Shown here piece by piece: positions 11,137 to 13,970 of a stretch of 64,000 nucleotides of DNA (within the stretch, counting starts at the first letter, position 1; each line of letters opens with the position of its first letter). This DNA comes from Burkholderiales bacterium (GTDB lineage Bacteria > Pseudomonadota > Gammaproteobacteria > Burkholderiales > SG8-41). A program made the translations under genes and the position numbers. The notes below the pieces were generated by a model. That model made no database searches, was not told where the DNA came from, and saw only the letters and a program-made list of their open reading frames with translations. Where the stretch lies: contig JAIETP010000004.1 of assembly GCA_019744975.1 (NCBI GenBank), positions 1-64,000 of the forward strand. Reading direction: 5' to 3'.

Positions 11137-12123
11137 TTATTTCGCCAGCCCAAGATCAACCAGCACGGCCTTCATCGATGCGTAATCCTGCTCGAGATCC
11201 TTGGTGAATTGCGCGCTGCCGGCGAACACATTGGACCAGATATTTTTTTCCAGCTCCTCCTTCCATTCCGGCGCTTCGGTGGATTTGCGCAGCACGCCTT
11301 CCCAGTACGCCACTTGCTGCGGCGTCAGGCCCTTGGGCGCGAATATCGAGCGCCACGCGCCAAAAGTGAAATCCGCGCCCTGCTCCTTCCAGGTCGGCAC
11401 CGCGGCAAACGCTCCGGGGAAACGTTGTGCCGAGGTGATGCCGATCACACGCAAACGGCCCGCGGCAACATGCGCCGCAACGTTGCCGGCAGCCGTGGTC
11501 ACCAGGTCGACATGGCCGCCGAGCAGGTTGGTCACCGCATCGGCAGAACCCTTGAAGGCCACCACCTTCAGGTCGCGCGCGCTGCCACCAATGGTTTTCA
11601 TCAGCACGCCGGCGGCGATATGGTTGTGGCTGCCGAGCAGCGGCGAAAAGGCAATGGTCACTGACTTCGGGTCCTTGCGCAGGCGGTCGATCAGATCCTT
11701 GCCGGTTTTGAGGCTGGAGTCAGCCGCGACCGCGAACACCGTGTAATCGTCAAACAGCGAAGCCACCGCCGTCAGATCGGAATGGCGCAATGCGCTGGAG
11801 CCGACGATGTGATTGGTCAGGATGGCAGGCCCGGCAACCACCAGATAATGCGGATCGGCGTTGCGTTGTTGTACATAGGTATAGGCAATGCTGCCGCCGC
11901 CACCCGACCGGTTGTTGATGCTCAGCGTCACCGGCAACAGCTTGTTGGCGAGGATGATGCGCTCAAGACTGCGCGCGGTTTTGTCATTGCTGCCGCCCGG
12001 TGGATTGGGCACGACGATTTCGACGTTTTTGCTGGGTGACCAGCCTTGGGCGCCGGCGATGGCGGCAACTCCTGCCAGTACGGCGGCGATACCGAATTGC
12101 ATGAATACACGTGCGTATTGCAT
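11137..12123 (-). CDS. Bug/TctC-family periplasmic substrate-binding protein
   Basis: A 328-residue extracytoplasmic binding protein of the tripartite tricarboxylate (TctC/Bug) type, with a signal peptide cleaved after IAGA near residue 25. Recognisable stretches are KNVEIVVPNPPGGSNDKTAR, LPVTLSINNRSGGGGSIAY and DLVTTAAGNVAAHVAAGRLR. ATG 12123 is preceded by GAGGAGG. No membrane components (TctA/TctB) lie nearby, as is usual for the many orphan Bug proteins of Burkholderiales. It follows the UGSC selenoprotein by 65 bases on the same strand and is probably in one operon with it and the gene at 12933-13970. Its ligand may be the substrate of that operon. Confidence 0.9.
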   Translation of the reverse strand: MQYARVFMQFGIAAVLAGVAAIAGAQGWSPSKNVEIVVPNPPGGSNDKTARSLERIILANKLLPVTLSINNRSGGGGSIAYTYVQQRNADPHYLVVAGPAILTNHIVGSSALRHSDLTAVASLFDDYTVFAVAADSSLKTGKDLIDRLRKDPKSVTIAFSPLLGSHNHIAAGVLMKTIGGSARDLKVVAFKGSADAVTNLLGGHVDLVTTAAGNVAAHVAAGRLRVIGITSAQRFPGAFAAVPTWKEQGADFTFGAWRSIFAPKGLTPQQVAYWEGVLRKSTEAPEWKEELEKNIWSNVFAGSAQFTKDLEQDYASMKAVLVDLGLAK

Positions 12124-12188
12124 GGCTTCCTCCTCAGGACCACACATCGGCGGGAGGGCCGGCGGCCCTCCCGTGCAAGAACCCGCTG

Positions 12189-12728
12189 TTATTTGCTGCC
12201 TTGCCCGTTCATCAGCAGATCCACCACCTGCGGCGTGATTTCCGCCGCGCGCTGGTCCATCTGTTCCGGCGTCAGATTGGCAATCGGATGCGGCAGCACC
12301 AGGAATTTGAAATCCGGCACGCCCCATGTCCTTGCCATCGCCTTGCCCGTCACCGTAAATACATGCGTCACGATCGACGCCGACGGTACACCCTGCTGTT
12401 CAAACATTATGCTGTCGAGCACACTGCCCGAGCTGCATGACCCTCAATCACCGACGCCTGCGACGACGATGTCGCAGTTGGCTTTGTAGTCTTCGATCAT
12501 CTCCGGACTGGGCGCCGAGCCGGAGCTTTTCTTTTTGCGGATCACATGCGTTTTCGCGCCGTGTTCACGCTCGAGGATGCCGGCGACACGCAGCAGGATC
12601 TGGTCGGAGTTGTGTTTGGTGTTGTCGACCAGGCCGATGCGCAGGCCCTTCAGCGATTTCGGCCGCGGCACAAAATTGATCGTGCGACCTTTCACTTCAG
12701 TGGTGGGATCATAGATCTGGATGCTCAT
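12189..12728 (-). CDS. UGSC-family selenoprotein (in-frame UGA at codon 95)
   Basis: A 179-residue protein if the TGA at complement 12444-12446 is read as selenocysteine. The reading frame continues unbroken through the TGA and gives GVGD-U-GSCSSGS, the U-G-S-C signature after which the family is named. The C-terminal half holds FEQQGVPSASIVTHVF, WGVPDF and LPHPIANLTPEQMDQRAAE. AAGGAGG precedes ATG 12728. A hairpin with a GU-containing loop follows the UGA. The active site is presumably redox, using Sec95 and Cys98. The gene sits between a Bug protein and a conserved unknown on the same strand. The alternative, two separate ORFs or a pseudogene, is unlikely because the motif spans the codon. 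Confidence 0.88.
12411..12433 (-). promoter_or_regulatory. Putative bacterial SECIS element of the UGSC gene
   Basis: Read on the minus strand, the mRNA behind the UGA folds as GCU/AGC outer pairs and GGGC/GCUC inner pairs around the loop AGUGU. The loop starts 19 bases after the UGA, and its second base is G. Known bacterial SECIS elements have an apical loop about 16-37 bases from the UGA with G in one of the first two positions. The stem is short and has a small bulge. Confidence 0.55.
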
Positions 12729-12740
12729 ATCGACCTCCTT

Positions 12741-12768
12741 AAAAATATAAATAAAAACAAATACTTAC
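12741..12768. repeat. Recurring AT-rich motif upstream of the UGSC gene
   Basis: On the minus strand it reads AAGTATTTGTTTTTATT and then runs into the AAGGAGG ribosome site of the gene at 12728. Near copies lie at 20784, 32374, 49355 and 55601, mostly within tens of bases of a start codon. Confidence 0.6.
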
Positions 12769-12775
12769 AACATTT

Positions 12776-12860
12776 GTCATTCCGGACGCGCAAGGCGCGA
12801 TCCGGAATCCAGTGGTCTCGCCAGCACCGTTGCTGGACTCCGGCTTGCGCCGGAGTGACG
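12776..12860. repeat. Dispersed palindromic repeat (GTCATTCCGG family)
   Basis: An imperfect inverted repeat: GTCATTCCGGACGCGCAAGG on the left and TCCGGCTTGCGCCGGAGTGA on the right, both pointing inward. A second member of the same family lies at 17130-17214. Weak traces of the CTCTGTGGC repeat follow at about 12879-12925. Confidence 0.8.
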
Positions 12861-12932
12861 AAACCCAGGATGGGTTTTCTCTGTGACCTCTGTGGCTAAT
12901 GTTTTTGGGTTATCTCTGTGGCAAAAAGATTT

Positions 12933-13970
12933 TCAGTATTTCTTGATTTCCCGCGTGACACTCTGCGAACCGTTTTTGCCGCCCCAGCCTGGAATATAGG
13001 CTGATTGCACACCGGCACGGCCGCCGGCGGCGATCACCAGCAAATCCTGCGGCGTCTCGACCAGCGGTATCAGTGTTTTTTCGGTTTCAGCGGTAATCGG
13101 GCCCGGATGGATGTTCGCGCGCTGCAGGTCGGCCAATTTCGATTGGGTGTTTTCGAACACGTATTTCTGCACGTCTTCGCGCGACCAGCCGGCCTTTTTC
13201 ATGATTTCCTGATGTTCACCGGCAAACACCATCGCGTACTGCGGCTGGCGGTTGGTGCCTGCCGAGATGCGCATCTGCGCGCAGGCGGTGGTCAGCACGC
13301 CTTCGGGGGTCGCACTGAGGCCGTTCGAATACTGGTGCGGCGCGAAGGCGGCAAACACCGTCACCGCGTTCTGGTCGGGGCGGAAACCGCGCGTGGTGTG
13401 AAACGCCGGCCAGGGACTGTCCTGCTCGTTCTCGGCGATGCAGAAGGTGTATTTGCCGGCATGGCCCAAGCTGCTGCGGTCCAGTACGCCGGGCGTGGTG
13501 CCAATCACGTTTTGCATCATCAGGCGGATGGCGCGGCCGATGGTGGCGTTGGCGCGCCAGCCCTGGCCGAACAGGTTGTCGCCGTTATTGATATTCAGCT
13601 GCTTCGCGATCGGGCCGTTGACCAGCATGAACACCGCAGCACCGCCGGTGCTGGTCGCCGGACCGTGGTAACCGTATTTGGCATCGGCCAGCGCTTCGAC
13701 CGCGGCCGCAATCACCGGCATGTATTCGGGTTTGCAGCCGGCCATCACGGCATTGATCGCAACTTTCTCGGCAGTCACCGAAACCTGGCGGTTTTCGATG
13801 AAGGCGAGCTGGTGTTCGGGCTTGAGGTTGGCGGCCTCGAGCATCGCGGTAATGCGCTCCGCCGTCGGCGGAATTACCGGCATGCCGTCGGTCCAGCCGT
13901 TGGCATAACAGAGCTCAATGGCACTGCCGAGGTCTTCGACGGTGTGCGTCCTTGATTTCAGTGCAAGCAT
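12933..13970 (-). CDS. Conserved protein of unknown function, first gene of the UGSC operon
   Basis: A 345-residue soluble protein with no signal peptide and no family I can name. Conserved-looking stretches are LCYANGWTDGMPVIPPT near the start, a glycine-rich GYHGPATSTGGAAVFMLVNG near residue 105, and VIAAGGRAGVQSAYIPGWGG near the end. Six cysteines are scattered, with no CxxC. It lies 204 bases upstream of the UGSC selenoprotein on the same strand; the gap holds a dispersed repeat and the AT-rich motif, so the downstream genes may also have their own promoter. A metabolic enzyme working with the selenoprotein is plausible but unproven. Confidence 0.7.
   Translation of the reverse strand: MLALKSRTHTVEDLGSAIELCYANGWTDGMPVIPPTAERITAMLEAANLKPEHQLAFIENRQVSVTAEKVAINAVMAGCKPEYMPVIAAAVEALADAKYGYHGPATSTGGAAVFMLVNGPIAKQLNINNGDNLFGQGWRANATIGRAIRLMMQNVIGTTPGVLDRSSLGHAGKYTFCIAENEQDSPWPAFHTTRGFRPDQNAVTVFAAFAPHQYSNGLSATPEGVLTTACAQMRISAGTNRQPQYAMVFAGEHQEIMKKAGWSREDVQKYVFENTQSKLADLQRANIHPGPITAETEKTLIPLVETPQDLLVIAAGGRAGVQSAYIPGWGGKNGSQSVTREIKKY

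Follow-up and report, generated by a model that had tools for sequence, protein, structure and literature searches.

The locus examined here raises the question of whether a reading frame interrupted by a stop codon encodes a single protein and, if so, what that protein does. The frame lies at 12728..12189 on the minus strand of the window, the stretch of 64,000 nucleotides from a Burkholderiales bacterium (contig JAIETP010000004.1) that was analysed. It comprises 179 residues and contains a single TGA at 12446-12444 (minus strand), at residue 95, flanked by GVGD and GSCSS. The Shine-Dalgarno sequence AAGGAGG (12734..12740, minus strand) is located 5 nt before the ATG. The original prediction, made from the sequence letters, had described a frame open save for this one TGA, read GVGD-U-GSC-SS across it and assigned the product to the UGSC family of selenoproteins. 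Both the frame and the assignment were borne out. The whole frame matched PF24696 at 195.6 bits (cut-off 25) over nearly the full profile length and NF041046, 'UGSC family (seleno)protein', at 150.9 bits (cut-off 125), placing it above both curated cut-offs, and the [U/C]GSC motif was present as GVGDUGSC. The gene at 12189..12728 is a further member of an already known family.

The two halves of the frame matched PF24696 separately (cut-off 25), the part before the TGA at 77.1 bits over profile positions 1-92 and the part after it at 97.4 bits over positions 94-171. A codon-by-codon comparison was performed with the 33 of 38 relatives that aligned without gaps; five were dropped, and at most four of the 33 represent the same gene twice. 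The Sec column was TGA in 33/33. Before the TGA, 810 synonymous and 711 replacement differences were counted in 3102 codons, and beyond the hairpin described below the corresponding values were 723 and 557 in 2376 codons. As judged from these counts, the coding pattern is kept in both halves. In the 396 codons compared over the 12 positions immediately after the TGA, there were 22 synonymous differences and no replacement, and therefore the nucleotides there are themselves constrained. TGA is not reassigned genome-wide, since the neighbouring gene at 13970-12933 terminates in TGA.

The expectation that standard gene callers would split such a gene also proved correct, as the six-frame caller listed a 94-aa ORF stopping at the TGA. 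The 3' half is partly overlapped, in another frame, by the upstream extension of the next gene, which encodes a TctC protein. Without a stop, that frame extends upstream as far as an ATG at 12327, within the UGSC 3' half (window 12123-12327, minus strand), and this false start may be chosen by a gene caller, hiding the end of the selenoprotein.

Insertion of selenocysteine depends on dedicated machinery, and the original prediction had proposed looking for selA, selB, selC and selD in the same genome. All were present. In the genome of the window (G000, 99.28% complete), selA, selB and tRNA-Sec share a stretch of about 7 kb of a single contig, while selD was found elsewhere and itself carries an in-frame TGA inside the motif GGGUGCK, as in Sec-type selD. 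Each of the four gave one match above its curated cut-off. Homologues with Cys in place of U, the other expectation raised from the sequence, were identified at the exact column. The partner profile (the partner gene is described below) was run against the named genomes and yielded 80 loci, the best 80 of 577 confirmed, with 75 UGSC matches. Of these matches, 63 were aligned with the UGSC gene of the window to give 64 rows; another 12, judged by eye to be redundant or incomplete, were set aside, and each of them carries TGA at the motif. The Sec column held 55 TGA and 9 TGC codons, so that Sec or Cys was invariant in 64/64 rows. The Cys forms came from Natrialba, Cupriavidus, three Mycobacterium, an Alcaligenaceae bacterium and Parapusillimonas (L120 and L133), Candidimonas and Luminiphilus. 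Four of eight Cys-form genomes had selA above the cut-off and four did not, Natrialba giving a weak match below it; the ninth, L114, was left out of this count. Both Sec-form isolates examined have selA. A paralogue in the genome of the window (L056, G000:C27:40985-41326) reads U-G-S-S, with the second Cys missing, and is cut by a contig end.

Bacterial selenoproteins are expected to carry a SECIS element at a set distance from the UGA, with G and U in its loop. The SECIS-like hairpin in the window, located at 12414..12432 (minus strand), fits both, with a loop around GUG (12424-12422), 18-19 nt after the UGA. Numbered from the U of UGA, its stem runs from pair 21-27 down to pair 15-33. Comparative pairing was assessed in 48 distinct Sec forms, namely the window and those of the named genomes, the other copies of its own genome lying outside this test. 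G23 was present in 48/48 and U24 in 47/48 of these forms. At least five contiguous pairs were formed in 44/48 Sec forms versus 1/9 Cys forms; the hairpin is kept in the Sec forms and mostly lost in the Cys forms. Over eight pairs, 89% of the cells paired, compared with a mean of 79% in shuffles (0/1000 reaching the observed value) and 17-55% with slid partners, and the mean stem was 5.85 bp versus 1.86 bp with synonymously randomised codons. The fold energy of the window hairpin as a single sequence was not unusual (z -0.94), and the SECIS claim therefore rests on comparison and not on stability. An Rfam scan of the region gave no match reaching the gathering score; those obtained were at chance level. 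A 28-base pattern built from the hairpin occurred 517 times in 74 related genomes versus once for the reversed control; the pattern is not exhaustive, as it recovers 5/9 copies in the window's own genome and misses one of the 74 genomes altogether. With the machinery, the TGA/TGC exchange and the hairpin all in support of the decoding originally predicted, we regard insertion of selenocysteine at the window UGA (12444..12446) as practically certain.

UGSC genes were detected in 74/74 genomes searched of one bacterial family, with at least 1081 matches (at most 40 candidates per genome being scored). The genome of the window has nine copies. The draft genome G049 (98% complete, 2% contamination, 330 contigs, 5.7 Mb), searched in full, gave 58 matches. 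A TGA lies inside 54 of them, and 51 of those 54 are free of any other stop. The 55 stretches fetched from it (L188-L242) cover all 54 TGA-bearing matches and 2 of the 4 others; the exceptions were L242, which lacks Sec, and L241, in which a frame change breaks the copy. No copy was more than 73.1% identical to another, and the median identity to the nearest copy was 63%. The copies differ too much for strain mixing to be the cause, although wrongly binned contigs may contribute to the count. In a lenient test run without a control, a hairpin whose loop contains or adjoins GU was found in 49/54 copies and none in 5/54, and at least two loop classes were observed, AGUGU-like and CGUGUU-like. 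UGSC is massively expanded in this bacterial family, probably an uncultured one of the Burkholderiales. That the TGA is a real stop, arising from a pseudogene, a sequencing error or a boundary between two genes, is extremely improbable: the codon itself and an in-frame ATG (M108) after it would suit such a reading, but this ATG is without a Shine-Dalgarno sequence in the window and is Val in the close relatives compared, the TGA is kept in all 33 relatives and at the Sec column in 54/54 TGA-bearing G049 copies, Cys occupies the column elsewhere, and the hairpin is mostly lost in those Cys forms.

The original prediction, which stood with regard to the decoding, the family and the splitting of the gene, had not noticed this expansion, nor the neighbouring partner gene or the GrdB-like domain described below. 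The partner gene is located at 12933..13970 (minus strand) and encodes 345 aa of a family without a Pfam or NCBIfam model; a scan of 62 members gave chance-level matches only. The intergenic stretch between the partner and UGSC genes (12745..12930, minus strand) contains dispersed repeats; with 40 of 184 candidates scored, segments of it matched the genome at no fewer than 34 further places. In the genome of the window, the partner was adjacent to UGSC or fused to it in frame at 8/9 loci, the ninth being cut by a contig end. For 69 of the 86 partner matches of at least 100 bits in the named genomes, a same-strand UGSC gene lay no more than 700 bp away, and for a further 5 one was found within 2 kb. 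The remaining 12 comprised four at contig ends, six from Poribacteria, L143 and L141. No UGSC was detected near the partner at the six Poribacteria loci and L143, where a search for the motif [stop/C]G[SAGT]C gave no convincing hit, and at L141 it was present on the opposite strand only. Since the partner profile served as the query, this figure describes how often the partner has a UGSC gene; the opposite direction was examined in the window's own genome and in G049, where a partner was found in 35/35 stretches 1100 bases or longer and in 11/20 shorter ones that barely reach the neighbouring gene. We consider it very probable that UGSC and the partner constitute a two-part unit, in both the genomic and the evolutionary sense. 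Two variants of the partner were also seen. In the Poribacteria loci (L088, L090-L093, L099) it is missing model positions about 279-315, so that the C-terminal part is shortened, and at L058 (649-2732) one UGSC gene is preceded by two tandem partner genes.

On its other side, 65 bp after its end, the UGSC gene is followed by a gene for a TctC/Bug solute-binding protein of the tripartite tricarboxylate transporter type (11137..12123, minus strand; PF03401, 106 bits). A same-strand TctC gene was found within 300 bp of 4/9 UGSC loci in this genome. Four or more of nine would occur by chance with a binomial P of 0.0011 at 150 TctC genes per genome, a capped count, the 300-bp limit having been set after looking. 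In 88 stretches, the most frequent neighbour clusters, the pair itself aside, were TctC-type (23), short-chain dehydrogenases (16), unannotated (10) and LysR (10); the unannotated cluster may be a spurious frame, and the others were named from one example each. These TctC neighbours point to organic-acid uptake and breakdown. Their presence at only 4/9 own loci and in 23/88 stretches counts against a link with uptake. TctC/Bug genes are abundant in this 3.7-Mb genome, which has at least 150 (150 of 167 candidates were scored and all matched). In the same bacterial family, some GrdE-like genes also occur near TctC-like genes (L178, L181; judged by sequence start only).

The three-dimensional fold offers a further view of the UGSC product. 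Its AlphaFold model (mean pLDDT 90.1) comprises five strand-helix units in a row, with the Sec at the start of a helix; a strand at 87-93 and a helix at 96-111 are predicted around the UGSC motif. Fold matches in the PDB were weak and mixed (TM-score ≤0.53); flavodoxin, FMN reductase and further proteins of Rossmann-like fold are among the 50 of 1480 matches listed. Sequence searches of the PDB with the UGSC and partner profiles gave nothing under E 0.3. The fold is predicted to be Rossmann-like and not thioredoxin-like. This bears on the proposal that UGSC is a thioredoxin-like thiol reductase, which draws on the UxxC motif, on the 2008 opinion that the family has a thioredoxin-like fold, given in a passage of PMC2398784, and on the grouping of UGSC in a passage of PMC13188914. 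The confident row of five strand-helix units does not suit it, thioredoxin was absent among the 50 of 1480 matches listed, and a general thiol reductase would not be expected to be linked so closely to a single partner and to solute receptors. We therefore consider a thioredoxin-like reductase quite unlikely.

A more plausible relative is GrdB, the selenoprotein B of glycine, sarcosine and betaine reductase (PF07355). Full-length GrdB genes were present in 4/74 genomes of the same bacterial family, with a Sec codon in 8/8 of those whose full frames were read. When the UGSC profile with Sec masked was compared with eight GrdB sequences using hhalign, a probability of 92.8%, a P of 3.8e-7 (for one comparison) and a score of 48.7 were obtained. 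The alignment extends over 92 columns to near the C-terminus and places the Sec column on the Sec column; for example, U-G-T-S-T-R-C...E-R-A-G-I-P in a GrdB Sec domain corresponds to U-G-S-C-S-S-G...E-Q-Q-G-V-P in the window. Against this score of 48.7, reversed profiles reached at most 13.5, 60 column shuffles at most 20.7 and 43 decoy neighbour families at most 34.2. The best decoy (34.2, P 2.7e-4) was a cluster of 2-hydroxyacid dehydrogenases with a Rossmann fold, and since Rossmann decoys score this high, part of the GrdB score may reflect the common fold. PrdB-like sequences alone, with Sec masked, scored 18.6, which was not significant, and pooling them with GrdB lowered the score to 38.8. 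On these masked scores we consider the UGSC domain a likely homologue of the GrdB Sec domain; they give no significant evidence of homology with PrdB. An unmasked match to PrdB-like proteins (0.018) was discarded, as it leaned on the Sec itself and was gone once this was masked. Membership in the glycine, betaine, sarcosine and proline reductases was likewise rejected: PF07355 was absent among the 25 of 32 families listed for the 64 UGSC rows, and the partner is unlike GrdE. One UGSC row matched PF09338 (GrdE) at E 0.055, which is chance level.

Several related loci were recorded during these comparisons. GrdB genes with a Sec codon lie beside GrdE-like genes in related genomes (L178, L179, L180, L183, L184), some of which have several GrdB copies. 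The genome of the window contains a PrdB-like frame with an in-frame TGA and a U-PNCT motif (L165, G000:C3:211584-211799), and an in-frame TGA was present in 26/26 PrdB-like loci fetched (L152-L177), with 191 to 269 residues following the Sec.

The best overall explanation, which we consider reasonably probable, is that the locus encodes the Sec subunit and the partner of a two-part enzyme. There is strong support for decoding of the UGA with selenocysteine through the downstream hairpin together with SelA, SelB, tRNA-Sec and SelD. The UGSC product would then be the selenol-bearing subunit, and the other part would be the protein encoded just upstream, which is fused to it in some paralogues. 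The UGSC domain is, with moderate support, a distant relative of the GrdB Sec domain. Its fold would be Rossmann- or flavodoxin-like, U standing where a helix starts and a Cys following at the third position after it. The chemistry of GrdB, partly as given in a review passage, provides the analogy for partner and substrate. By this analogy, the partner would bind and activate a small organic substrate, the selenolate would attack it so that a carbon-heteroatom bond is cleaved, and the UxxC pair would close to a Se-S bridge that is subsequently reduced by a thiol system. With units beside TctC importers and with nine to more than 50 paralogues, each unit might serve a different imported organic acid. 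We propose the role of a selenol subunit in a two-part catabolic reductase, its chemistry and substrate being drawn from the analogy, and the reductive cleavage itself we put forward tentatively.

The division of labour between the two proteins could also be the reverse: the partner, perhaps a hydrolase or lyase, would carry out the catalysis, and the role of UGSC would be confined to delivering electrons or accepting a leaving group. Polar residues that never or hardly ever vary are numerous in the partner: across 62 rows, D28, R146 and E180 are invariant and R149 is nearly so. The invariant positions further include G29, P31, T36, G119 and P120. Its model is confident (pLDDT 94.8), and its best PDB matches are class I fumarases and cyclic amide hydrolases, which would suit such a catalyst; these matches have TM-scores <0.3, and the invariance of Sec or Cys in 64/64 UGSC rows argues for a catalytic role on the UGSC side. 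Catalysis by the partner is therefore unlikely. The partner showed no sequence similarity to GrdE, PrdB-like proteins or full GrdB. Together with the masked PrdB-like score of 18.6 and the weak partner folds, its difference from GrdE, the usual partner of GrdB, counts against a GrdB-type reading. Returning to the two-part selenoenzyme, UGSC and its partner might represent a previously unrecognised GrdB-related two-component class acting in the reductive cleavage of imported substrates, with dozens of substrate-specific paralogues per cell in one family, and one protein family would then equal a selenoproteome near the largest reported. We offer this wider reading with some reserve. The question of UGSC function becomes testable through its strict partner, its predicted fold and its plausible ancestor.

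The UGSC family has been known from sequence surveys. In passages of the GOS survey, 255 UGSC proteins were reported, among the commonest selenoproteins in natural waters (PMC2398784), and a passage of a 2016 survey of more than 5200 organisms gives 33 UGSC selenoproteins in 26 organisms (PMC5029168), versus the 54 Sec-codon UGSC genes in one 5.7-Mb genome reported here. According to a passage of PMC13188914, the largest whole selenoproteomes recorded in recent work number 57 and 63 genes. The passages of PMC2398784, PMC13188914 and PMC5029168 gave no function for UGSC, and these together with those of PMC9312934 contained no link between UGSC and glycine reductase; nothing to the point on UGSC paralogues or Burkholderiales was found in the literature, both searches lying mostly outside subscription journals. 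The family itself is known; the unit with the partner, the relation to GrdB and the expansion in one lineage go beyond the original prediction. The more interesting result is the combination of a Sec-carrying subunit, whose relation to GrdB is probable, with a nameless partner and an extraordinary multiplication within one lineage.

Compared with the family as defined by PF24696, NF041046 and the GOS 'UGSC-containing protein', the window gene shows nothing essentially different. The passages of the UGSC papers do not describe the linkage to a partner, beyond fusion to 'Unknown_1', or the expansion. The UGSC/Unknown_1 proteins of GOS 2008, known by their description in a passage of PMC2398784, consist of UGSC fused to a conserved domain that is possibly the partner family of the window. 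The PrdB-like selenoproteins (PF07355 positions about 222-345, e.g., L165) occur in the same genomes as UGSC and appear by sequence to share the strand-U-xx-C arrangement, but lack a significant profile match to it once Sec is masked. GrdB differs in that UGSC is without its N-terminal two thirds and in that its usual partner is GrdE, which the UGSC partner is not by sequence. The likeness to GrdB lies around the selenocysteine, where G+1, E+15, G+18 and P+20, counted from U, are in register with UGSC.
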